Below, piece after piece: positions 16,962 through 63,517 of a stretch of DNA of 63,719 nt. The notes below the pieces were generated by a model. That model was not told where the DNA came from. It searched no databases and saw nothing but the letters and a program-made list of their open reading frames with translations. The DNA lies in the NCBI RefSeq assembly GCF_016862995.1, contig NZ_BOOA01000052.1, positions 1-63,719 of the forward strand. The letters run 5' to 3'. Position 1 is the stretch's first letter; each line of letters begins with the position of its first letter. Origin of the DNA: Acrocarpospora phusangensis (lineage in GTDB: Bacteria; Actinomycetota; Actinomycetes; Streptosporangiales; Streptosporangiaceae). The position numbers and the translations under genes are program-made.

Positions 16962-18122
16962 TCAAACGACGCGCCGCCCCGCCTGCCACACCTGCGCCAC
17001 CAGCGGAACCCCCGGCCGGTAGGCCAGGTGCACGTACGACGGAGCGTCCAGGATCACCAGATCCGCCCGCGCTCCCGGCCGCAGCACGCCGACGTCGCCG
17101 CGCCGCAGCGCCGCGGCCCCGCCCCGCGTCGCGGCCCGCACCGCCTCCAACGGCGTCATGCCCATCTCCCGTACGGCCAGCGCCACGCAGAACGGCATCG
17201 ACGAGGTGAACGAGGACCCCGGATTGCAGTCCGTCGCCAGCGCCACCGTCACCCCCGCGTCCAGCAGCCGCCGCGCGTCCGGGTACGGCGAGCGCGTCGA
17301 GAACTCCGCACCCGGCAGCAGCGTGGCCACCACGCCGCTGGTAGCCAGCAGGTCCACGTCCCGGTCGCTCAAGTGGGTGCAGTGGTCGGCCGAGGCCGCC
17401 CCCAGCTCGCAGGCCACCCGTACGCCGGGCCCCTCCCCCAGCTGGCCGGCGTGCACCCGGGCGCGCAGCCCGGCCTTGATCCCGGCGGCCAGGATCTCCC
17501 TGGTCTGGTCCTCGTCGAACGCGCCGCGCTCGCAGAACACGTCCACCCATCTGGCGTGCGGCGCGCAGGCCTCCAGCATCGGGCCGGCGGCCAGGCGCAC
17601 GTACGCGTCGGGGTCGCCGTCGGGGACGACGTGCGCGCCCAGGTAGGTGGTCTCGGGGGTGAAGGCGGAGGCGATCTCCAGGGATCTGCGCTCGTCCTCG
17701 ACGGTCAGGCCGTACCCGCTCTTGATCTCCATGGTGGTGGTGCCCTGGGCGATCATCTCGGCGACCAGCGCGGCCGTGTTCGCGGCCAGGGCGGGGGTGG
17801 TGGCGGCGCGGGTGGCGGCCACGGTGGTGCGGATCCCGCCCGCCGAGTACGGCCGGCCGGCCATCCGGGCCGCGAACTCCTCGGTGCGGTCCCCCGCGAA
17901 CACCAGGTGGGCGTGGCTGTCCACGAAGCCGGGCAGAACCGCCCGGCCCGCCGCGTCCACGGCACGGTCGGCCGTGGGGGCGTCGGCGCGCTCGCCCGCC
18001 CAGACCACGGTGTCGCCCTCGACGACCAGCGCGCCGTCGGCGATCTCCTCGCGTTCGGGGTCGCCGGTGTAGAGCACGCCGATGCCGTGGAAGAGCGTCG
18101 ACTTCTTGGAGGTCTCCGTCAT
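16962..18122 (-). CDS. hutI: Imidazolonepropionase
   Basis: A 386-residue amidohydrolase that converts 4-imidazolone-5-propanoate to N-formimidoyl-L-glutamate in histidine degradation. Metal and substrate motifs visible are [15 protein letters not shown] near residue 65-79, [28 protein letters not shown] and [10 protein letters not shown]. The length fits the family. The gene starts 16 nt after hutF ends, as the last gene of the M20-hutF-hutI operon. The stretch 16786-16961 upstream of its end contains no gene. Confidence 0.95.
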
Positions 18123-18138: not shown

Positions 18139-19479
18139 TCAGCCGCGGACCGCGTCGATGGCGTCCCGGAGCAGCGGGCCCGCCTCGCCCAGCGTGTGCC
18201 TGCCGTCCTCGACGATCCGCCGGCCGCCCGAGACCACCGAGGTGACGTCCGCCGCGGTCGCCGCGAATATCACCGACTCCACCGCGGAACCTGCGGTGGC
18301 TCCGGCCGTACGGACCGAGTCGAGGCGGACCGTGACCAGGTCGGCGTGCGCGCCCGGGAGCAGGAAACCGGCGTCGGGGAAGCCGATCGAGGCGTGCCCG
18401 GCGGCGGAGGCGGCGTTGAGCAGTTCGGCGGCCGTCCAGTGGCCGCGCGTCTCGGTGGCGAGCCGCTCGTCCAGTTCGACGGCGCGCGCCTCCTCGAACA
18501 GGTCGATCACCGCGTGGCTGTCGGAGCCGAGCGTGATCGGGCAGCCCGCCTCGAACAGGCGGCGGGCCGGGCCGACGCCGTCGGCCAGGTCGCGTTCGGT
18601 GGTCGGGCACATGCAGACGTGCGTGCCGGAACCGGAGAGCAGGGCCACGTCCTCATCCGACACGTGGGTGGCGTGCACGGCCGTCGAGCGCGGGCCGAGC
18701 ACGCCGTGCTCGTGCAGCACCCGGACCGGGGAGGCGGCGTACGCGGCCACGCAGGCGTCGTTCTCCGCGCGCTGCTCGGAGACGTGCGCGTGCAGCGGGC
18801 CCGCCTGCCGGTGCGCGAACTCCACGACCACGGGCATCTGCTCCGGCGGGACCGCGCGCACCGAGTGGATGGCCGCGCCGATCTCCACGTCCTCCTCGCC
18901 GTGGTAGACGGCCGCCAGCTCCTCCGCCCGCTCGGCCCAGCGCTGCGCGTCGCCGTCCCCGAACCGCACCTGCGGCCCTTGCAGCGCGGCCCCGATGCCG
19001 CCGGTCAGGTAGCAGGTGTCCAGCAGGGCGATGCGCAGCCCCGCCGCCCGCGCCGCCTGCACCAGCGCGTGCCCCATCTCGTTCCCGTCCTTGTACGGCG
19101 TGCCGTCCGGACCGTGGTGCACATAGTGGAACTCGGCCACGGAGGTGATCCCGGCCAGGGCCATCTCCGCGTACACGGCCTTGGCCAGGGTGTAGTAGTT
19201 GTCCGGGTCCAGGCGGGCGGCCACCGCGTACATCTGCTCGCGCCAGGTCCAGAACGAGCCGCGTTCCGCCTCGGTGTGGCCGCGCAGCGCGCGGTGGAAG
19301 GCGTGCGAGTGGGTGTTGGCGAGGCCGGGAATGGTGAACCCCGCCAGCCGTACGGCGGCGGGCGGGGGGGCGGTGTGGCGTTCGACGTCGGCGATCCAGC
19401 GGCCGTGCACCGTGATGAGCACGCCCGAGATGACCTCTCCCGGAGGGAGCCAGGCGAGTTCGCACCAGTACCTGGTCAT
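18139..19479 (-). CDS. hutF: Formimidoylglutamate deiminase
   Basis: A 446-residue amidohydrolase that deaminates N-formimidoyl-glutamate to N-formyl-glutamate, the route used when HutG-type direct hydrolysis is absent. The motifs [19 protein letters not shown] near residue 52-70, [39 protein letters not shown] and [23 protein letters not shown] are those of HutF. Its ATG overlaps the stop of the M20 hydrolase by 4 nt and hutI follows, which fixes the pathway assignment. Confidence 0.95.
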
Positions 19480-20723
19480 GCGGCGTCACCACAGAGGTCG
19501 GCGAGGACCGCGGCGAGGGCGGTGACCCCGGCCGCGCAGTCCGCCGGTTCGGCGAACTCCGCGGGCGAGTGCGAGACGCCGGTGGGATTACGGACGAACA
19601 GCATGGCGCTGGGGACTCCGGCGGAGGCGAGGATGCCGGCGTCGTGGCCGGCTCCGGTGGGCAGGATCGGGGCGGCGTCTCCGGCGTCTCCGGCGTCGCC
19701 CGCGGCTCCCGCAGCTCCGGTGGGCAGGATCGGGGCGGCGTCTCCGGCGGCTCCCGCGGCTCCGGCGGCTCCGGCGATCGCGGCCAGGCGGTCGCGCAGG
19801 AGTGCCGGGAAGGCGACCTCGGGGGTCCACGACTCGCAGACCACCTCCTGGCCTTCGGAGAGGGCGGCGACCAGGTGGCGCACGGTCTGCTCGTCGGCGC
19901 CGCGGGCGTCCAGCCAGGCCGACACCAGGGACGGGATGGCGTTGGCGTTGTTCGGGGTGACCTGGACCTTGCCGAAGGTGGCCACCACGCCGAGGCGTTC
20001 GGCTTCCTGCCTGGCGGCCAGGACGGCTTGGGCATAACGCAGCATGGGGTCGTCGCGGTCGGCGAGGGCGGTGGTGCCGGCGTGGTCGGCGGTGCCGCGG
20101 AAGTCGAACCGCCAGCGGCCGTGCGGCCAGATCGCGGCGGCCACCCCGACCGGCTTGGTGAGCGCCCGGCCCTGCTCGATGTGGAGTTCCACGAAGACGC
20201 CGATCCGCTTGAGGGTCTCCTCGTCCTGGCCGAGGCCCGCGGGGTCCCGGCCGTTGGCGCGCAGGACCTCGGCGAGCGTACGCCCGTCGTCGCCGGTCAG
20301 CCCTCGTGCGCGTTCCGCTGGCAGGATTCCCGTCAGCAACCTCGACCCGACGCAGGGCACCCCGAACCTGGCGCCCTCCTCGTCGCTGAAACTGACGATC
20401 CCCAGCGGGCGGTCGGGCCTGAACCCTCGGCCTCTCAGCGCGTCCACGGCCTGGAACGCCGACACGACCCCCAGCGGCCCGTCGAAGGCGCCGCCCTCAC
20501 GCACCGAATCAAGATGACTCCCGGTGACCACGCCCGGCGCGCTGTCCGGATCCCCCCACCAGGCCCACAGATTCCCGTTGCGATCCTCGTGCCGATCCAG
20601 GCCGCGCGCGTCGGCCTCCTGCCGGAACCACTCCCGAAGCTCCAGCTCAGCCCCCGACCAGGCGTCCCGCCGATACCCCCCGGTCCGCCCGCTCCGGCCA
20701 ACTCCCGCTAGTACTTCAAGCAT
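19476..20723 (-). CDS. M20-family amidohydrolase (allantoate amidohydrolase / N-carbamoyl amino acid hydrolase type) in hut operon
   Basis: A 415-residue dinuclear metal hydrolase. Metal-site motifs are TGSHLDSVREGGAFDGPLG, SFSDEEGARFGVPCVGS, ELHIEQG and GAGHDAGILA with the final HSPAEF. Its place before hutF and hutI suggests it removes the formyl group from N-formyl-glutamate, although the family is named for allantoate; this substrate is inference. Just before the catalytic GAGHDAG block there is a 21-residue in-frame duplication (DAAPILPTG twice). I use ATG 20723; a TTG at 20753 is also in frame, but the operator palindrome 13 nt upstream of 20723 argues for the shorter form. Confidence 0.87.
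   Translation of the reverse strand: MLEVLAGVGRSGRTGGYRRDAWSGAELELREWFRQEADARGLDRHEDRNGNLWAWWGDPDSAPGVVTGSHLDSVREGGAFDGPLGVVSAFQAVDALRGRGFRPDRPLGIVSFSDEEGARFGVPCVGSRLLTGILPAERARGLTGDDGRTLAEVLRANGRDPAGLGQDEETLKRIGVFVELHIEQGRALTKPVGVAAAIWPHGRWRFDFRGTADHAGTTALADRDDPMLRYAQAVLAARQEAERLGVVATFGKVQVTPNNANAIPSLVSAWLDARGADEQTVRHLVAALSEGQEVVCESWTPEVAFPALLRDRLAAIAGAAGAAGAAGDAAPILPTGAAGAAGDAGDAGDAAPILPTGAGHDAGILASAGVPSAMLFVRNPTGVSHSPAEFAEPADCAAGVTALAAVLADLCGDAA
19651..19776 (-). repeat. 63-bp tandem duplication inside the M20 hydrolase gene
   Basis: The segment starting GCTCCGGTGGGCAGGATCGG at 19651 recurs at 19714, a shift of exactly 63 bp, and the copies are nearly identical for the first 30 bp. Surrounding Gly-Asp-Ala triplets extend the low complexity. 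Frame is kept. Confidence 0.85.
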
Positions 20724-20736
20724 CCTCCCAGCGTAC

Positions 20737-20752
20737 TGAATGACTCCATTCA
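20737..20752. promoter_or_regulatory. Predicted hut operator, M20-hutF-hutI promoter
   Basis: TGAATG-ACTC-CATTCA, a perfect 6-bp inverted repeat with a 4-bp spacer, ends 13 nt upstream of the M20 start codon. The same arms and spacing occur upstream of hutU (26825-26840). This position overlaps or follows the transcript start, as expected for a repressor. Confidence 0.75.
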
Positions 20753-20815
20753 ACGTGTAGGACCGGGCTTAGCCGAACATACGACTAATGGCACGGCGCT
20801 TGCCAACGGAGGGCT

Positions 20816-21070
20816 GAGCGTCAGCCCGAAGCCGGACGGACCCGAGCGTCAGCCCGAAGCCGGACGGACCCGAGCGTCAGCCCGAAAAGGGTGGGTGGGT
20901 GGGAGAACCACCGCAGGCGATGCCGGGCGTGCCAGCGAACGCCCGAAGAGGAAGTACCAGCCCGACAAAGGGCGGATAGATGGGAGAACCACCGCGGGCT
21001 ATGCCAGGCATGCCGGCGAGCGCCGGAAGAGGGGCAGAGCGCCAGCTCAACAAAGGGTGGGTGGGTGGGG
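20816..21070. repeat. Two families of intergenic tandem repeats
   Basis: The 359-nt gap 20754-21112 has no supported gene. It holds a 28-bp unit (starting GAGCGTCAGCCCGAAGCCGG) repeated exactly twice plus half a copy at 20816-20885. A degenerate unit of 81-85 bp then follows, with landmark GGGAGAACCACCGC, in about 2.2 copies to 21070. The repeats follow the SDR gene stop on the minus strand. Confidence 0.8.
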
Positions 21071-21112
21071 AAATCCCGGCAAACAAGGATGCCGGGATTC
21101 TCCAGGGCAGGG

Positions 21113-21802
21113 TCAGTTCACCGGGCCGGCCGAGGGGCGGACGGTTATTTCGGTGATGTGAGCGTCGGCGGAAGCCGTGACGGCGGCTAGGACGGCCCGG
21201 GCTACGGAGTCGGGTTTCAGGTAGCGGTCGGGGTCGTAGGCGCCACCTTCTTCTTCGCGTACCTGGCGTTGCATGTCGGTGGCGATACGGCCGGGGTAGA
21301 CACTCGTGACGCGTACGCCATGGGGCTCTTCCTCCTGGCGGAGCACGTCGGCGAAGGCCCGGAGGGCGAACTTGCTGGCGGCGTAGGAGGCCCAGCCCGG
21401 ATGGGCGCGCAGGCCGGCACCCGAGTTGATGAGGACGACGTGGCCTTTGGCGGCGCGGAGTTCGGGCAGCAGCAGCCGCGTGAGTTCGGCGACCGCGACG
21501 ACGTTGAGTTCGTAGGTCCTGCGCCACACCTCGGCGGGCGTGTCCTCGATGCTCCCGACGCGCACCATGCCCGCACTGTGCACCAGAAGATCCACCCGCC
21601 CCACTCCGGCGACATCGAAGGGGCTGAGCTCCGCGAGATCAACCGGAAGCGCCCGCGCGCCGAGCTCGGAGCAGATCGCGTCGAGGGCCGCACCGCCGCG
21701 CCCGCCGAGGACGAGGTCGTAATCCGGCGCCAAAGCGCGGGCGATGGCGGCCCCGAGACCGCGGGACGCCCCGGTGACCAGGGCGGTTGGACGTTCGCTC
21801 AT
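21113..21802 (-). CDS. Short-chain dehydrogenase/reductase
   Basis: A 229-residue classical SDR oxidoreductase. The NAD(P)-binding motif TGASRGLGAAIARAL is at residues 10-24, HSAGM stands for the NAG motif, and the active-site set is SGAGLRAHPGWASYAASKFALRAF with YxxxK. The substrate is unknown. It is divergent from the PadR regulator at 21858, with only 55 nt between the starts, and a palindrome there may control both. It lies inside the split hut region but has no obvious role in histidine degradation. Confidence 0.9.
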   Translation of the reverse strand: MSERPTALVTGASRGLGAAIARALAPDYDLVLGGRGGAALDAICSELGARALPVDLAELSPFDVAGVGRVDLLVHSAGMVRVGSIEDTPAEVWRRTYELNVVAVAELTRLLLPELRAAKGHVVLINSGAGLRAHPGWASYAASKFALRAFADVLRQEEEPHGVRVTSVYPGRIATDMQRQVREEEGGAYDPDRYLKPDSVARAVLAAVTASADAHITEITVRPSAGPVN

Positions 21803-21820
21803 GGCATTCAGTCTAAGCCG

Positions 21821-21857
21821 TTGAGTTGATCATACAAATTTGTATATAAATTTGAGC
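21821..21857 (+). promoter_or_regulatory. padR promoter with perfect 14-bp palindrome, leaderless start
   Basis: A -35 like TTGAGT (21821) and a -10 TATAAA (21845-21850) are separated by 18 bp, with the ATG at 21858 only 7 nt past the -10. ATACAAATTTGTAT (21832-21845) is a perfect palindrome filling the spacer. The DNA is strikingly AT-rich for this genome. It sits between two divergent genes. Confidence 0.7.
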
Positions 21858-22388
21858 ATGTCCTCGACGCGCATCCTGATCCTCGGCACCCTCCTCGACG
21901 GCCCCCTCCACGGCTACGAGGTCCGCCGCCGCCTCGAACTCTGGGGCGCGAGCACGTGGGCCAACGTGGCCTTCGGCTCGATCTACCACGGCCTGGCCAA
22001 GATGGCGGACGAGGGCCTGCTGACCGTGGCCGAGCAGGGCAGGGGCGGCAAGACCGTCTACGAACTGACCGACGACGGACGGATGGAGTTCCAGCGCCAG
22101 CTGGTCGCCTACTGGTGGGAGATCCATCCCATCGTGGACCCCTTCCAGGTCGCGCTCACCTTCATGAACCGCCTCGCCCCCGCCGATCTGGTGGCCGCCA
22201 TGAAGGCCAGAGACGAGCAGCTGACGGCGGCGATCTCGATGACCGAACGGGCGCTCGGCGGCAAGCAGGCGTTCGGCGCTCCCCGGCACGTGGACGAGTG
22301 CCTGCGCCTCAACGCGGCTCAGCTCACCGCCCAGCTCACCTGGCTGCGCGAGGCCGTCGGCCGGGTGCGGAACGGCGAGCTGCCCTGA
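21858..22388 (+). CDS. PadR-family transcriptional regulator
   Basis: A 176-residue winged-helix repressor. The N-terminal PadR domain reads RILILGTLLDGPLHGYEVRRRLELW and FGSIYHGLAKMADEGLLTVAEQG, followed by a helical C-terminal dimerisation domain, so it is of the larger PadR/Vir subclass. The ATG at 21858 fits a leaderless mRNA; TTG 21840 upstream is in frame but inside the promoter. It is followed by an ABC exporter pair on the same strand, the typical target of such multidrug-responsive regulators. Confidence 0.93.
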   Translation: MSSTRILILGTLLDGPLHGYEVRRRLELWGASTWANVAFGSIYHGLAKMADEGLLTVAEQGRGGKTVYELTDDGRMEFQRQLVAYWWEIHPIVDPFQVALTFMNRLAPADLVAAMKARDEQLTAAISMTERALGGKQAFGAPRHVDECLRLNAAQLTAQLTWLREAVGRVRNGELP

Positions 22389-22530
22389 CCCGGAAACCGA
22401 CCCCGGAAACCGACCCCGGAAACTGTCGGTGGCACCGGGCAGACTGGGCGCGCTCAGCTGTCGGGAAAACCGCTTGACCCTCGCGCCGGGTCACCCTCCA
22501 TGCTGACTATCCCCTGAATCCGGAGAAATC

Positions 22531-23490
22531 ATGATCATCGAAGCGCATGATCTGCGTAAGACCTTCATCGCCAAACGTGGCCGCGGCAAGACCGAGGAGG
22601 TCCAGGCCGTCCAGGGCATCGACCTGAGCGTCGAGGCCGGTGAGATCTTCGCGGCGCTCGGCCCCAACGGCGCCGGGAAGACCACGACCGTCCGCATGCT
22701 GGCCACTTTCACCGCCCCCACCTCCGGCACGGCCAGGGTGGCCGGGTTCGACGTGGTGAAGGACGCCGCCAAGGTGCGCGAGAACATCGGCTACGTCAGC
22801 CAGGCGGGCGGCGTGGACGACAACTCCCCGGGCCTGGACAGCCTCATGCTGGCGGCCAGGCTCAGCGGCATGTCCCGTAAACAGGCCAGGACGCGCGCCG
22901 ACGAGCTGCTTGAGGCCTTCAGCCTGACCGAGATCGCCAACCGCCCGGCCAAGACCCTGTCCGGCGGGCAGAAGCGCCGGTTCGCGCTGGCCATCGGCCT
23001 GGTGACCAAGCCTCCGCTGGTCTTCCTGGACGAGCCCACCACCGGTCTGGACCCGCAGAACCGGGCCAACCTGTGGGACGAGGTGCGCGACCTGCGCGCC
23101 CAGGGCACCAGCGTCCTGCTGACCACCCACTACCTGGACGAGGCGGACGCGCTCTGCGACCGGCTGGTCATCATCGACCACGGCAAGATCGTCGCCGAGG
23201 GCACGCCCACCGAGCTCAAGAAGGAAGTGGCGGGCGACGTCGTCACGCTGAAGCTCAAGGGCGTCGCCGAGGCGAAGGAACTGCTGGCCGCGCAGGACTA
23301 CATCAAGGAGGTCCGCGCGGAGGAGGACACGCTGCGCGCCTACCTGGACGACGGGGAGCACGGGCTGCCGCACCTGCTGCGGGCCCTGGAGGAGCGCAAC
23401 CTCACCCTGGACTCGATCTCGCTGGATCGGGCCACGCTCGACGACGTCTTCCTCCGCCACACCGGCCGCTCGCTGCGCGACGCCGCCTGA
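22531..23490 (+). CDS. ABC transporter ATP-binding protein, DrrA-type drug exporter
   Basis: A 319-residue ATPase of the daunorubicin-resistance DrrA family that powers export with the permease encoded next. Walker A is GPNGAGKTTTVRML near residue 47, the signature is LSGGQKRRFALAIGL, Walker B is LVFLDEPTTGLDP, with the H-loop LTTHYLDEADALCDR. The C-terminal DUF4162-like region is present. The start ATG follows GGAG by about 8 nt. The 142-nt gap from padR holds short direct repeats (CCCCGGAAACCGA) but no gene. Confidence 0.95.
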   Translation: MIIEAHDLRKTFIAKRGRGKTEEVQAVQGIDLSVEAGEIFAALGPNGAGKTTTVRMLATFTAPTSGTARVAGFDVVKDAAKVRENIGYVSQAGGVDDNSPGLDSLMLAARLSGMSRKQARTRADELLEAFSLTEIANRPAKTLSGGQKRRFALAIGLVTKPPLVFLDEPTTGLDPQNRANLWDEVRDLRAQGTSVLLTTHYLDEADALCDRLVIIDHGKIVAEGTPTELKKEVAGDVVTLKLKGVAEAKELLAAQDYIKEVRAEEDTLRAYLDDGEHGLPHLLRALEERNLTLDSISLDRATLDDVFLRHTGRSLRDAA

Positions 23491-23517
23491 CCCCCACATC
23501 TCCTAAGGATTCCCCCC

Positions 23518-24267
23518 ATGCTTCGCCATACCGCGCTCTTCCTGGGCTACGAGCTCAGGTTCCTGCTCCGCAATCCGATCTGGCCGGTGTTCGGCATCCT
23601 GCAGCCGGTCATGTACCTGATCTTCTTCGCGCCGCTGCTGGGCAGCACCACCCCGAGCGGGTCGATGCCCGAGGTGCTGGCCATGTTCACGCCCGGCTCG
23701 ATGATGATGATCGCCCTGTTCGGCTCGCTGTTCGCCGGGTTCGGGCTGATCAACGAGACCCGCAACGGCGTGCTGGAGCGGCTGGCGGTCAGCCCCGCCT
23801 GGCCGCCGGCCATCATCCTCGGCCGGGTGGCCAAGGACATGCTGGTCCTGGTGCTCCAGGCGATCCTGGTGATGGGCGTGGCCGTGCTGATGGGCCTGCG
23901 GATCGGGCTGGTCTCCTTCCTGATCATGCTCGCCCTGATGGCCATGACCGGCCTGTTCGCCGCCAGCCTCTCCTACGGCCTGGCCCTGGCCCTGCGGGAC
24001 GAGAACGGCATGTCGCAGATCGTGCAGTTCTTCGCCATGCCGCTGACCCTGATCGCCGGCCTGTTCCTGCCGGTCTCCCTCGGCCCCGAATGGCTCCAGA
24101 CGGCGGCCAAGTTCAACCCGCTCTACTACGGCGTCGAGGCCGGCCGGGCGCTCTTCCGCGACGACCTCTCCGACAGCACCATCCCCACCGCGTTCGGCCT
24201 GCTCGCCGTCCTCGCGGTGATCACCCTGGTCTGGTCGATGCGGTCGCTCCGCAAGATGGCGGGTTGA
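23518..24267 (+). CDS. ABC-2 type permease, DrrB type
   Basis: A 249-residue membrane protein with six predicted segments (such as PVFGILQPVMYLIFFAPLL, MMIALFGSLFAGFGLI and LAVLAVITLVWSM). The ABC-2 signature region FFAMPLTLIAGLFLPVSLGPEWLQTAAKFNPLYYGVEAGR is near residues 180-212. It forms the exporter channel with the ATPase 27 nt upstream. Its stop is 1 nt from the convergent RpiR gene. Confidence 0.94.
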   Translation: MLRHTALFLGYELRFLLRNPIWPVFGILQPVMYLIFFAPLLGSTTPSGSMPEVLAMFTPGSMMMIALFGSLFAGFGLINETRNGVLERLAVSPAWPPAIILGRVAKDMLVLVLQAILVMGVAVLMGLRIGLVSFLIMLALMAMTGLFAASLSYGLALALRDENGMSQIVQFFAMPLTLIAGLFLPVSLGPEWLQTAAKFNPLYYGVEAGRALFRDDLSDSTIPTAFGLLAVLAVITLVWSMRSLRKMAG

Positions 24268-24268
24268 T

Positions 24269-25138
24269 CTAGAGGACGGACGGATCCTCCCGAACCGGCG
24301 GGTCCACGAAGACCCCGCGCTGTTCGGTCATCCGCTCGTACTCCTCCAGGCGCGCCTGGGTTCGCAGCGGCGCCGCGTCGGCCATGGCCTCCACCAGCAG
24401 CATGGCCAGGGCCAGCGGCGCCGCGTGCGAATCGAAGACCAGCCGCTCCCCCACGGGCGCGTCCAGCACCACGTCCGCGGGGAACGGCACCACGCTCCTG
24501 TCGGTGATCACCGCCACCCGCAGCCCCAGCTCCTTGGCCGACTCCAGCGCCTCCACGGCCTCCGCCGGGTACCTGGGCAGCACCACGGCCAGCACCCAGG
24601 CCGCGCCCGCCCGGCGCGCGCTGTGCAGGCCGTCGGCCAGTTCCGAACCGCCGTGGGTGAGCAGCCGCACGTCCGGATGGATCCGCCGCGCGTAGTACGC
24701 GAAGGTCGTGGCCAGGCCACTGGACACCCGTACGCCGACGACGAGCAGGGGCTCCGAGGCCGCCAGGGCGACTCCCAGCTCCGCGATCAGCGCCAGGAAC
24801 TCGCCGCGGTCGCGCAGGGCGGCGAGGTTGCGGATCTCCGCGTCCAGGGCGTTCCGCAGCAGCGCCCGCTCACCCGGGATGTCCGGTTTCCCGTCGCCGC
24901 CCACGCCGAGCACCAGGGGCCGCAGCGCCTGCCGCAGCTCCGGATAGCCGGCGAACCCCAGCGCCGCCGCGAAGCGGGTGACCGACGGCTGGCTCACGCC
25001 CGCCCGCTCGGCCAGCTCGACGCTGGACAGGAAGATCGCCTCGGACAGGTGCTCGCCCAGGTAGTGGGCGATCCGGCGCTGCACCGGGGAGAGCCGCCTG
25101 CCCGCCAGGAGCTCATCGATCCCGTCGCCCACAGCCAC
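24269..25138 (-). CDS. MurR/RpiR-family regulator, predicted hut repressor
   Basis: A 289-residue RpiR-type regulator. An N-terminal HTH (LSSVELAERAGVSQPSVTRFAAALGFAGYPELRQAL, residues about 37-72) is followed by a SIS domain (LLVVGVRVSSGLATTFAYYARRIHPDVRLL to FDSHAAPLALAMLLVEAM) that in this family senses a pathway intermediate. It starts 27 nt downstream of hutU and is therefore probably co-transcribed with it. That makes it the best candidate to bind the TGAATG-N4-CATTCA sites before hutU and before the M20-hutF-hutI operon; this is inference. The effector could be urocanate or a later intermediate. Confidence 0.92.
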   Translation of the reverse strand: MAVGDGIDELLAGRRLSPVQRRIAHYLGEHLSEAIFLSSVELAERAGVSQPSVTRFAAALGFAGYPELRQALRPLVLGVGGDGKPDIPGERALLRNALDAEIRNLAALRDRGEFLALIAELGVALAASEPLLVVGVRVSSGLATTFAYYARRIHPDVRLLTHGGSELADGLHSARRAGAAWVLAVVLPRYPAEAVEALESAKELGLRVAVITDRSVVPFPADVVLDAPVGERLVFDSHAAPLALAMLLVEAMADAAPLRTQARLEEYERMTEQRGVFVDPPVREDPSVL

Positions 25139-25165
25139 CTCACAAATCCACGCGAACCCGGCGGA

Positions 25166-26812
25166 TCAACTCTCCCGCATCGGGACGCGTACGCCACGGG
25201 CGTCGGCGACTTCGGTGGCCTCGTCGTAGCCGGCGTCCACGTGGCGGATCACGCCCATGCCCGGGTCGTTGGTGAGCACCCGGTTGAGCTTCTCGGCGGC
25301 GAGGGCGGTGCCGTCCGCCACGGAGACCTGGCCGGCGTGGATGGAGCGGCCGATGCCGACGCCGCCGCCGTGGTGGATGGAGACCCAGGAGGCGCCGGAG
25401 GCGACGTTGACCATGGCGTTGAGCAGCGGCCAGTCGGCGATGGCGTCGGAGCCGTCGGCCATGGCCTCGGTCTCGCGGTAGGGGGAGGCGACGCTGCCGC
25501 AGTCCAGGTGGTCGCGGCCGATGACCACGGGCGCGCTCAGGGTGCCGTCGGCGACCATGGCGTTGAAGCGTTCGCCGGCGCGGTCGCGCTCGCCGTACCC
25601 GAGCCAGCAGATGCGGGCGGGCAGGCCCTGGAAGTGCACACGCTCGCCGGCCATCCGGATCCAGCGGGCCAGCTGCTCGTTCTCGGGGAACAGGTCCAGG
25701 ATGGCCTGGTCGGTGGCGTGGATGTCGCGCGGGTCGCCGCTGAGGGCCGCCCACCGGAACGGACCCTTGCCCTCGCAGAACAGCGGGCGGATGTAGGCGG
25801 GCACGAAGCCGGGGAAGGCGAACGCGCGGGCGTACCCGGCCAGCTGGGCCTCGCCGCGGATGGAGTTGCCGTAGTCGAAGACCTCGGCGCCCGCGTCCTG
25901 GAAGCCGACCATGGCCTCCACGTGCCTGGCCATGGACTCCCTGGCCCGGGTGGTGAACCCGGCCGGGTCCTTCTCCCTGGCCTCCGCCATGTCCTCGAAC
26001 GCCACCCCGACCGGCAGGTACATGAGCGGGTCGTGCGCCGAGGTCTGGTCGGTGACCACGTCGATCTCCGCGCCCCGGCGCAGCAACTCCGGCAGGGCCT
26101 CGGCCGCGTTGGCCTCCACCCCGATGCTGAGCGGGCGGCGCGCGTCCCGAGCCTCGTAGGCCAGGCGCAGCGCCTCGTCCAGGTCGGCGGCGCGGACGTC
26201 CAGGTACCGGTGCTCGATCCGGCGCTCGATGCTGCGCGGGTCGCAGTCCACGCAGATGGCCACGCCGCCGTTCATGGTGACCGCGAGCGGCTGCGCCCCG
26301 CCCATGCCGCCGAGCCCGGCGGTGAGCGTGATCGTGCCGGCCAGCGAGCCGCCGAACCGCTTGGCGGCCACGGCCGCGAAGGTCTCGTACGTGCCCTGCA
26401 GGATGCCCTGGGTCCCGATGTAGATCCAGGAACCCGCCGTCATCTGGCCGTACATGGTGAGGCCGGCCGCCTCGAGCCGCCGGAACTCCTCCCAGTTCGC
26501 CCAGTCGGGCACCAGGTTGGAGTTGGCGATCAGCACCCGGGGCGCCCACTCGTGCGTGCGCATCACCCCGACCGGGCGGCCGGACTGCACCAGCAGGGTC
26601 TCGTCCCCGGCCAGCGTGGTCAGGGTACGGATGATCGCCTGGAAGGACGGCCAGTCCCGGGCGGCCTTGCCCGAGCCGCCGTACACGACGAGCTGTTCCG
26701 GATGTTCGGCGACCTCGGGGTCGAGGTTGTTCTGAAGCATCCGGAGGGCGGCCTCCTGCGGCCAGTCTCGCGCGGTGAGTGCGGTGCCGCGCGGCGCCCG
26801 AACGGTAGGCAT
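25166..26812 (-). CDS. hutU: Urocanate hydratase
   Basis: A 548-residue urocanase that hydrates urocanate to imidazolonepropionate using tightly bound NAD. Visible family blocks are [63 protein letters not shown] and [16 protein letters not shown] with the conserved catalytic-region Cys. ATG 26812 has AGGAGG 7 nt upstream; the open frame extends 59 codons further but through the operator. No hutH (histidine ammonia-lyase) is in the window. It is the first gene of a hutU-rpiR unit. Confidence 0.96.
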
Positions 26813-26824
26813 GTGCCGTCCTCC

Positions 26825-26860
26825 TGAATGAAAGCATTCACATCGGTCACCCGAAGGATA
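26825..26860 (-). promoter_or_regulatory. hutU promoter and predicted hut operator
   Basis: TGAATG-AAAG-CATTCA (26825-26840) abuts the ribosome site, 12 nt upstream of the hutU ATG. A plausible -10 (TATCCT, 26855-26860) lies just upstream, so a repressor bound here would block early elongation or initiation. Confidence 0.75.
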
Positions 26861-61247: not shown

Positions 61248-61428
61248 GGTTTCGCGGGGATTCGGCCGGCTCAACCGCCCATGGGACGGGAATCTCAGAC
61301 CATCGGACAAGAAATTTAACACAAAGTCAATTGTTGCGTCAACCCCTCTTGACGTGGGCTGATCGGGTTCGTTGGCGTCTCCATCACGTCGTAACCCGGC
61401 CGTAAGATCTTCTGTCGCCGGGCAGGCG

Positions 61429-61441: not shown

Positions 61442-63517
61442 GTGGAACCTCGCACTCGGCTGCCCGTGTGGGCGGCAGCTCTGGTCGGCGTGACGGCCGG
61501 TGCCGTCGCGCTCGGCATCTCCCAGCTCGTCGCCGGCGTGTTCGGCGGAACGTCGCCGGTCATCGCGGTCGGAAACTCCGCCGTCGACCTCAGCCCGCTC
61601 TGGCTGAAGGAGTGGGCGATCCGCACCTTCGGCGAAAACGACAAGAACGTCCTCGTCAGCGGCATCCTCGTCGTCATCGCCCTCATCGCCGCCGGCCTCG
61701 GCATCCTCTCCCGCCGCCGAGTCGCCTTCGGCACCACCGGCCTCTACCTCTTCGGCGCCGTCGGCATGCTCTCCGTCCTCACCAGCACCGACTCCAGCCC
61801 TTTCGCCATCTTCCCACCCCTGATCGGCGCGGCCGCCGGCGCGATGACCCTGTCCTCACTGTTCCGCCGCCTCGAACCCCCGCCTTGGGCCGAATCCCAA
61901 CGCGCCGAGGCCCTGGCGACCGCAGAACGCGAGGCGTCCGGTGGGCGGACGGCCGAAGGTCTGGCCGCTGCGGAGAGGGAGGCGTCGCGCGGGCGGACGG
62001 CCGGGACCTTGGCCACCGTGGAGCGGGAGGCGTCAAGCGGCGCACGGACAGTTCCCGGGGCCGAGGACGCGGACAGAGGGGACGCGCCCTCATACGTCGG
62101 AGCTGGGGACGCAGACAGCGGGATCACACACCCAGATGCCACAGGTGCGGACTCGGGCGAGGGGCGGTCAGACGCCGGGGCCGAGGACGCGGACAGTGAG
62201 GGCCCGCATTCAACCACCGGGAGCGTGGACTCGGGCCAGAGGCGGACAAACGCCGGGACCGACGAGGCGGACAGCCGGGGCGCGTATTCGGACGCCGGGG
62301 GCGCGGACTCCAGCCGAGGGCGGACAAGCGCCGGGGCCGAGGGTGCGGACAGCGGGGGCGCGCATTCAGGCGTGGCCTCCGGCGGCGAGTCCGCTGGGGC
62401 GGGCAGGGTGGAGCGGCCGGCCGTCATGCGGGCTGGGCCCGACCTGTATGCCTTCAATCGGCGGAAGTTGCTGACCGGGGTCGGTGTGGGGCTGGGCGTG
62501 GCCGGGGTCTCGGGGGTCGCGGGTCAGTGGTTGTCGGGCCGCAACGACGTCTCCGGGGCGCGGACCGCTGTGGCCAAGGCGCTGCCGACTCCTGCGACGC
62601 CGCTGCCGCCGCTCCCGCCGGGAGTGGACTTCAAGCTGCCCAACCTGTCCCCGTTCACCACCCCGAACCACGACTTCTACCGCGTGGACACCGCGCTCGT
62701 GGTGCCCTCGGTAGACCCCAAGTCCTGGACCCTGAAGATCCACGGCATGGTCGACAAACCCATCGAGATCACCTTCGACGATCTCATCCGGCGTCCCCTG
62801 ATGGAGGCCGACGTCACCCTCACCTGCGTCTCCAACGAGGTCAACGGCCCCTACGTGGGCAACGCCCGCTGGCTCGGCGTACGCATGGCCGACATCCTTC
62901 GCGAAGCGGGCCTGCAGGCCGACGCCGACATGCTGCTCAGCACCTCCACCGACGGCTGGACCTGCGGCACCCCCATCGACGTCGTCATGGACGGCCGAGA
63001 CGCCCTCTTCGCCATCGCGATGAACGGCGAAGTCCTCCCCGTCTCCCACGGCTTCCCCGTCCGCCAGGTCGTCCCCGGCCTGTACGGCTACGTCTCCGCC
63101 ACCAAATGGGTAACCGACATCAAGGTCACCCGCTACGACCTCGACGAGGCGTACTGGACCCCCCGCGGCTGGTCCGCCAAGGGCCCGATCAAAACCGGCT
63201 CCCGCATCGACGTCCCCCGCAACAAGGTCAAACCCGGCCGCAACACGATCGCCGGAGTCGCCTGGGCCCAGCACCGCGGCATCGAAAAAGTCGAAGTCAA
63301 AGTAGACGAAAGCGATTGGCAGATCGCCCGCCTGGCCGAAGTCCCCGGCCTCGACACCTGGCGCCAATGGTCGCTCGACTGGGACTTCACCCCCGGCCTC
63401 CACACCATCCGCTGCCGCGCCACCGACGGCACCGGCGAAACCCAAACCGCCAACGGCGCCCCACCCGCCCCCGACGGCGCCACCGGCTACCCCACAATCC
63501 TCATGGAAGCCGTCTAA
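61442..63517 (+). CDS. Membrane-anchored sulfite oxidase-family molybdopterin oxidoreductase
   Basis: A 691-residue protein. Four N-terminal membrane segments (residues about 8-140) are followed by a 180-residue hydrophilic repeat linker, a further hydrophobic segment (KLLTGVGVGLGVAGVSGVAGQWL), and an extracytoplasmic SUOX-type domain: FYRVDTALVVPSVDPKSWTLKIHGMV, the Mo-ligand Cys in VTLTCVSNEVNG, RWLGVRMADIL, and a C-terminal dimerisation domain (GVAWAQHRGIEKVEVKVDESDWQIA). It may oxidise a sulfoxide, sulfite or other small molecule outside the membrane. The gap to the window end (63518-63719) holds nothing I can support. Confidence 0.9.
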   Translation: MEPRTRLPVWAAALVGVTAGAVALGISQLVAGVFGGTSPVIAVGNSAVDLSPLWLKEWAIRTFGENDKNVLVSGILVVIALIAAGLGILSRRRVAFGTTGLYLFGAVGMLSVLTSTDSSPFAIFPPLIGAAAGAMTLSSLFRRLEPPPWAESQRAEALATAEREASGGRTAEGLAAAEREASRGRTAGTLATVEREASSGARTVPGAEDADRGDAPSYVGAGDADSGITHPDATGADSGEGRSDAGAEDADSEGPHSTTGSVDSGQRRTNAGTDEADSRGAYSDAGGADSSRGRTSAGAEGADSGGAHSGVASGGESAGAGRVERPAVMRAGPDLYAFNRRKLLTGVGVGLGVAGVSGVAGQWLSGRNDVSGARTAVAKALPTPATPLPPLPPGVDFKLPNLSPFTTPNHDFYRVDTALVVPSVDPKSWTLKIHGMVDKPIEITFDDLIRRPLMEADVTLTCVSNEVNGPYVGNARWLGVRMADILREAGLQADADMLLSTSTDGWTCGTPIDVVMDGRDALFAIAMNGEVLPVSHGFPVRQVVPGLYGYVSATKWVTDIKVTRYDLDEAYWTPRGWSAKGPIKTGSRIDVPRNKVKPGRNTIAGVAWAQHRGIEKVEVKVDESDWQIARLAEVPGLDTWRQWSLDWDFTPGLHTIRCRATDGTGETQTANGAPPAPDGATGYPTILMEAV
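61900..62390 (+). repeat. Repeat linker in the oxidoreductase gene
   Basis: Three 18-residue units (EREASxGRTAxxLA) are followed by about 3.5 units of roughly 26 residues, each made of a GAxDADSxGxxS part and a GxxDSGxxRxxA part. The DNA period is about 78 bp. Frame is kept throughout. Confidence 0.85.

Follow-up and report, generated by a model that had tools for sequence, protein, structure and literature searches.

We analyzed a 63,719-nucleotide stretch of Acrocarpospora phusangensis DNA (contig NZ_BOOA01000052.1; the whole stretch is hereafter called the window), which carries histidine utilization (hut) genes in two units, M20-hutF-hutI and hutU-rpiR. A perfect palindrome of the form TGAATG-N4-CATTCA was found before each unit, and the comparative evidence makes it very likely that the RpiR-type regulator encoded in the second unit binds these sites and controls both units. 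The regulon consists of hutU-rpiR and M20-hutF-hutI and is not the whole histidine pathway. The proposed circuit, in which a catabolic repressor regulates its own gene, is of an ordinary kind; the regulator family that would run it is unexpected.

A probable shared operator before two hut units

An earlier note on this DNA had reported two TGAATG-N4-CATTCA palindromes with equal arms and spacer length before the hut units, and both were found to be free of mismatches and to lie where it had placed them (Table 1). The operator ends 13 nucleotides (nt) from the M20 ATG (20723, minus strand) and 12 nt from the hutU ATG (26812, minus strand). When up to two mismatches were allowed, three sites were seen in the window against 0.44 expected, the third being a two-mismatch site at 62197. 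Perfect sites occurred in the 9.1-Mb genome only at 20737 and 26825, with about 0.031 expected from the base composition of the window. Four one-mismatch sites were also detected in the same genome and considered as further targets; all were rejected because each lies within an open reading frame. The shared operator was thus found at the operon of rpiR itself and at the target operon and not elsewhere, which is the pattern of a local autoregulated catabolic repressor. The concern that the motif might be common in unrelated promoters was checked genome-wide and in the relatives, and it did not hold.

Conservation of the operator with rpiR and the hut genes

To follow the operator beyond A. phusangensis, a panel of 41 genomes (its own and 40 relatives) was used. 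An RpiR of at least 63% identity was present in 11 of the 41, and 10 of these 11 had perfect sites versus 1 of the 30 others, which brings the genomes with perfect sites to 11/41 (Fisher p about 1e-7 for the association, with relatedness ignored). The eleventh genome with this RpiR (G004) has two sites, both with one identical change. At a limit of one mismatch, the motif was found twice and no more around rpiR in each of 10 relatives from seven genera, the window's own included.

A scan of a named collection with the RpiR alignment gave 572 confirmed loci, of which the best 80 (1,320,932 bases) were examined; their genera belong to the Streptosporangiaceae, and several of the loci come from the same genomes as the 10 relatives compared at rpiR. 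These 80 loci held 141 sites, 118 perfect and 23 with one mismatch, and every one of the 141 was positioned before hutU (64), M20 (63), hutF (5) or rpiR (9), with none elsewhere. Seen from the side of the genes, a site preceded hutU in 64 of the 65 loci having it, M20 in 63 of 64, hutF in 5 of the 11 loci where it occurs without M20, and rpiR in 9 of the 15 loci without an adjacent hutU. None of eight control patterns matched the same loci at 0 or 1 mismatch, though few matches were expected. Both arms, TGAAT and ATTCA, were intact at 126 of the 127 hutU and M20 sites. The four spacer bases varied, and constant arms around a variable spacer are what would be expected of a protein-binding site. 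Co-control of both hut units by RpiR, as the earlier note had proposed, is therefore strongly supported by comparative genomics, with conservation at both units and no off-target sites in the 80 loci. The proposed autoregulation is likewise strongly supported, as an operator stands before hutU-rpiR and is kept at 9/15 solo rpiR genes; since rpiR begins 27 nt behind the end of hutU, RpiR would repress itself.

Operator position relative to promoter elements

In the related loci, a -10-like box was observed directly past the operator in all 63 M20 promoters having a site, 49 of them with TANNNT one base past the operator and 14 with CATAAT or GATAAT immediately past it. No TANNNT was found at other offsets from 0 to 13 past the M20 operators, and the start codon lay 12-14 nt past the operator in 63/63. 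The M20-hutF-hutI mRNA is predicted from this arrangement to be leaderless, with the operator blocking the promoter. Among the related hutU promoters, a TANNNT box was located 20 nt upstream of the operator in 37 of 64, which would probably place the hutU operator at or just past the transcription start. As the operators adjoin or follow promoter elements, the predicted layouts at M20 and hutU suit a repressor.

The RpiR protein and its probable inducer

The N-terminal helix-turn-helix of the window's RpiR was recognized as HTH_6 (PF01418, 52.7 bits against a cut-off of 28.3). The Pfam SIS score was 19.4 bits, below the cut-off of 25; the C-terminal SIS fold was nevertheless found by structure matching. 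The predicted structure (predicted local distance difference test 82.6, predicted template modeling score 0.62) matched the SIS structure 3sho with a template modeling score of 0.77-0.80 by target length, the best by that measure. Among full-length solved structures, those of NanR (E 2.5e-12) and RccR (E 3.2e-12) came closest; several of these have a sugar phosphate bound. MurR also ranked among the closest. The putative recognition helix VSQPSVTRF was present in 125 of 131 related RpiR proteins, with a single change in each of the remaining six.

It is clear from the same 131 proteins that the SxSGxT phosphosugar loop, as seen in NanR, is absent from all of them. It is replaced by VLPRYP in the window's protein and mostly by LPRYP, LPRHP or MPRHA among the relatives, whereas six of nine outgroup RpiR proteins kept S-(T/S)G-T. 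The loop is also missing in the other three outgroup proteins and in 3sho, so that its loss is not unique and is by itself no proof of a new ligand. Two arginines, R137 and R189, each conserved in 130/131 relatives, are located in the former phosphosugar loops, and all nine outgroup proteins have Gly or Ala at position 137. Judged from these residues, the inducer of RpiR is probably not a sugar phosphate. Because the phosphosugar loop is absent throughout the 131 proteins, an inducer from the histidine pathway would be expected, and urocanate or a later intermediate is favored.

hutH outside the proposed circuit

The earlier note had predicted a "complete" hut regulon and had suggested checking whether hutH is a third hit; the word "complete" failed this check. 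The motif is lacking at hutH of the own genome and at 14 other hutH genes from relatives; none of the 15 hutH upstream regions was closer to it than four mismatches, and hutH was rejected as a third target. Since there is no motif at hutH, the regulon is limited to the two units. hutH lies on a contig other than that of the window, and just 86 nt upstream of it are available in the own genome before the contig ends. In four relatives, tRNA genes begin about 90 nt (L069, L071) or 130 nt (L074, L075) upstream of hutH, so the unseen upstream part is small. A different sequence, GTAAGGNNCT-N16-GTNAC, was found to be conserved upstream of hutH in 11/11 genomes (seven genera) with this RpiR (L068-L078; own genome, G000:C40:1-120). 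This stretch could be promoter sequence, or another regulator may bind there.

Proposed mechanism and alternative explanations

From the above data we infer that RpiR binds and represses, that an inducer releases it, where transcription starts and that the M20-hutF-hutI mRNA is leaderless; the mechanism may be pictured as follows. A dimer of RpiR, or a pair of dimers, would recognize TGAATG-N4-CATTCA through its VSQPSVTRF helix. At M20-hutF-hutI the operator adjoins the -10 box on its upstream side, where bound RpiR would keep RNA polymerase out; in the case of hutU-rpiR, binding at or just past the start, abutting the Shine-Dalgarno sequence, would control both hutU and the repressor itself. 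During histidine breakdown, an intermediate formed ahead of the M20 step, most likely urocanate, or else imidazolonepropionate or formimidoylglutamate, would cause RpiR to be released by binding to its SIS-type domain.

Several observations weigh against this mechanism or narrow it. Spongiactinospora rosea (L172) has the genes and no site within two mismatches at hutU or M20, and both misses at these genes come from this one genome. At a limit of one mismatch, 6/15 solo rpiR genes and 6/11 hutF genes lacking M20 are without a site, and hutH is not covered. In the order-level relative L047, rpiR stands beside hutU with no site within two mismatches; its sister L048, with the same gene arrangement, has a one-mismatch and a two-mismatch site. 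A stray perfect site occurs in G017; no hut gene is present in its locus, and it was rejected as a hut target. Both forms of the -10 box that give the count of 63/63 at M20 were defined after the sequences had been inspected. The operator at hutU is possibly part of the transcribed leader, where the action of a bound protein is less certain. Finally, linkage of rpiR with hut genes is usual, so that co-occurrence alone cannot name the binding protein.

This last point gives some room to the explanation that another factor binds the sites and RpiR is a mere passenger, and a PadR-type gene (21840-22388) does lie between the two units. Such a role for PadR or another protein is quite improbable, as Sinosporangium album has both operators with no room for padR between rpiR and M20, which are about 140 nt apart. 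Moreover, the operator stands ahead of rpiR itself in 9/15 loci without hutU, and related RpiR proteins elsewhere accompany related half-sites at hutU. It is unlikely, to a lesser degree, that RpiR binds the sites and either activates transcription or senses a sugar phosphate, as a signal of carbon status, instead of a histidine-pathway inducer. The nearest full-length structures are of NanR and RccR, several of them with sugar phosphate ligands, and HexR and RccR are described in excerpts of PMC5489143 as sensing 2-keto-3-deoxy-6-phosphogluconate; however, the operators beside or past promoter elements suit repression, and the SxSGxT loop is replaced in 131/131 relatives.

An RNA-level role for the palindromes, as hairpins in an attenuator or in translational control, could draw on the hutU site abutting a Shine-Dalgarno sequence. 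It is highly improbable, because the M20 site precedes the predicted -10 box and would be left out of the transcript, and because the arm sequence, and not mere pairing, is identical at both places. For a chance repeat, nothing was found in favor, and its probability is negligible: in the 80 loci the 141 sites counted at a limit of one mismatch are confined to hut or rpiR promoters, and eight control patterns gave none (few being expected), which already refutes it. Repression of both units by RpiR, relieved by a histidine-pathway intermediate, is the explanation that we prefer.

Separated units and possible exchange of regulators

hutU was not found beside rpiR in 15 of the 80 loci, and in all 15 of these genomes it was present elsewhere. 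A masking artefact was rejected as the cause, as the 18 loci examined contained no run of at least 20 N. The surroundings of the relocated hutU genes were examined within flanks of 1.5 kb. Seven of the 15 had as neighbor a second RpiR gene, sharing 46-48% identity with that of the window, and a site within two mismatches; four lay beside another RpiR lineage with no site within two mismatches, and one (L180) near a site resembling the consensus of the IclR-type HutR (L180 3235-3250); the flanks of the other three held no recognized regulator. In Nonomuraea glycinis, M20-hutF-hutI is 19 kb from hutU-rpiR and the operator is kept, and N. corallina has M20-hutF on a separate contig, with a one-mismatch operator. 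An ATP-binding cassette gene lies between rpiR and M20 in Sinosporangium siamense. As 9 of the 15 solo rpiR genes and these separated hut units keep the operator, it is tied to rpiR and the hut units and not to the neighborhood.

Diverged second RpiR genes were noticed beside complete or partial hut clusters in L047, L048, L049, L173-L179, L246 and L247, and the seven loci L173-L179 among them had sites within two mismatches of the motif at hutU. These second RpiR genes suggest that hut clusters were exchanged together with their regulators. On balance, we lean slightly towards a broader proposal, namely that this actinomycete RpiR clade turned a sugar-phosphate SIS domain into a sensor of histidine intermediates, with R137 and R189 reading a carboxylate, and that within one family hut control was swapped repeatedly among an IclR-like system and two or more RpiR lineages, each bringing along an operator of its own.

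RpiR-hut linkage in other actinomycetes

A class-wide draw of 296 genomes contained 40 with an RpiR match at an E value of 1e-40 or better. In one genus with large genomes, presumably Streptomyces, 9 of 10 loci had a related RpiR gene at 1.1 to 6.6 kb from hutU, the tenth showing no hutU within the stretch examined, and TGACT-N5-TATTCA was present at 9/9 of the hutU promoters. These related RpiR genes suggest similar hut control in the presumed Streptomyces. Outside the window's family, related RpiR genes are found near hut genes and TGAAT-type half-sites accompany them; in two genomes of another family rpiR, hutU, M20, hutF, hutI and hutH are consecutive on one strand. In a tree of 62 proteins, built by a quick method and with long branches flagged, a starred branch parts the hut-type RpiR proteins from the outgroup, and the window's group forms a clade with 100% support in the Shimodaira-Hasegawa-like approximate likelihood ratio test. 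In the presumed Streptomyces genomes there is another RpiR relative as well (L211-L230; 49-55% identical), and no hut gene lies within 1.5 kb of it; a two-mismatch site lies just past the 3' end of this gene in 10 of the 20 loci.

Relation to known regulators

The IclR-type HutR of Corynebacterium resistens is described in excerpts of PMC8222616 as a hut regulator with the site GTCTGWWATWCCAGAC. As far as these excerpts go, the two systems share an actinobacterial hut-cluster regulator with a palindromic operator, whereas the regulator of the window belongs to another protein family and has another operator. Control of the window's hut genes by an IclR-type protein was rejected, because the only GTCTGWWATWCCAGAC site, at 61285 with three mismatches, is at chance level and distant from the hut genes. 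More than one kind of hut control exists among the relatives. In other hut clusters of the relatives, GTCTGWWATWCCAGAC-like palindromes were seen at hutU or hutH, in L180 and, by eye upstream of hutH, in L079, L081 and L082.

In Proteobacteria, the GntR-type HutC is a hut repressor whose core regulon, according to excerpts of PMC5343134, includes all known histidine catabolic enzymes. The window's regulator resembles HutC, so described, in its predicted repression of hut genes; unlike HutC, the regulator encoded together with hutU is RpiR-type and not of the GntR family, and hutH is outside its regulon. The HTH_6 plus SIS architecture is shared with HexR, RccR, MurR and NanR. Those proteins bind sugar phosphates, for which RpiR regulators are known in the excerpted part of PMC5489143, whereas the present clade is without the SxSGxT loop and its genes accompany those of amino-acid catabolism. 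No paper on RpiR control of hut genes was found among the open-access papers searched, and since RegPrecise and most subscription journals were outside the search, an earlier description is possible; the open-access papers naming both RpiR and hutU use the two words, in the parts retrieved, in unrelated contexts.

A candidate regulator and its operator are put forward here for hut control in a large family of soil actinomycetes. Should a histidine intermediate prove to be the inducer, the RpiR family would extend beyond the sugar phosphates of its studied members. In this actinomycete family, nature also provides a series of cases in which the regulator of a single pathway was apparently exchanged, which makes operator/regulator co-evolution directly testable.

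Genes and features of the window

The coordinates of the operators, the promoter elements and the genes are collected in Table 1. The proteins encoded by hutU, hutF, hutI and the M20 gene all passed their NCBIfam cut-offs.

Table 1. Operators, predicted promoter elements and genes of the two hut units in the window.
Feature	Position	Strand	Context or basis
Operator 1, TGAATGACTCCATTCA	20737-20752	none	Promoter of M20-hutF-hutI; perfect site, one of a genome-unique pair, conserved in the family
Operator 2, TGAATGAAAGCATTCA	26825-26840	none	Promoter or leader of hutU-rpiR; perfect site, one of a genome-unique pair, conserved in the family
Predicted -10 box TACGCT	20730-20735	-	1 nt past operator 1, 6 nt ahead of the M20 ATG
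Possible -10 box TATCCT of hutU-rpiR	26855-26860	-	TANNNT at equal distance in 37/64 related hutU promoters
Shine-Dalgarno sequence GGAGG of hutU	26820-26824	-	Abuts operator 2; GGAG or GAGG directly past the operator in 35/64 relatives
hutU, urocanate hydratase	25166-26812	-	TIGR01228
rpiR, proposed repressor, HTH_6 and SIS-type domain	24269-25138	-	PF01418, structure model
M20-family amidohydrolase	19476-20723	-	NF006770 (named allantoate amidohydrolase)
hutF, formimidoylglutamate deiminase	18139-19479	-	NF006681, TIGR02022
hutI, imidazolonepropionase	16962-18122	-	TIGR01224

The genome gave no match to an FGase-family HutG (PF05013), the arginase-like HutG type not having been searched for. 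From its place beside hutF in a hut unit, the M20 enzyme may perform the HutG step, the deformylation of N-formylglutamate. The M20 protein also contains a repetitive Gly-Ala-rich stretch in which GDAAPILPTG is repeated. A tandem-like repeat, gagcgtcagcccgaagccggacggaccc, was observed at about 20815-20890, between a short-chain dehydrogenase/reductase gene and operator 1.

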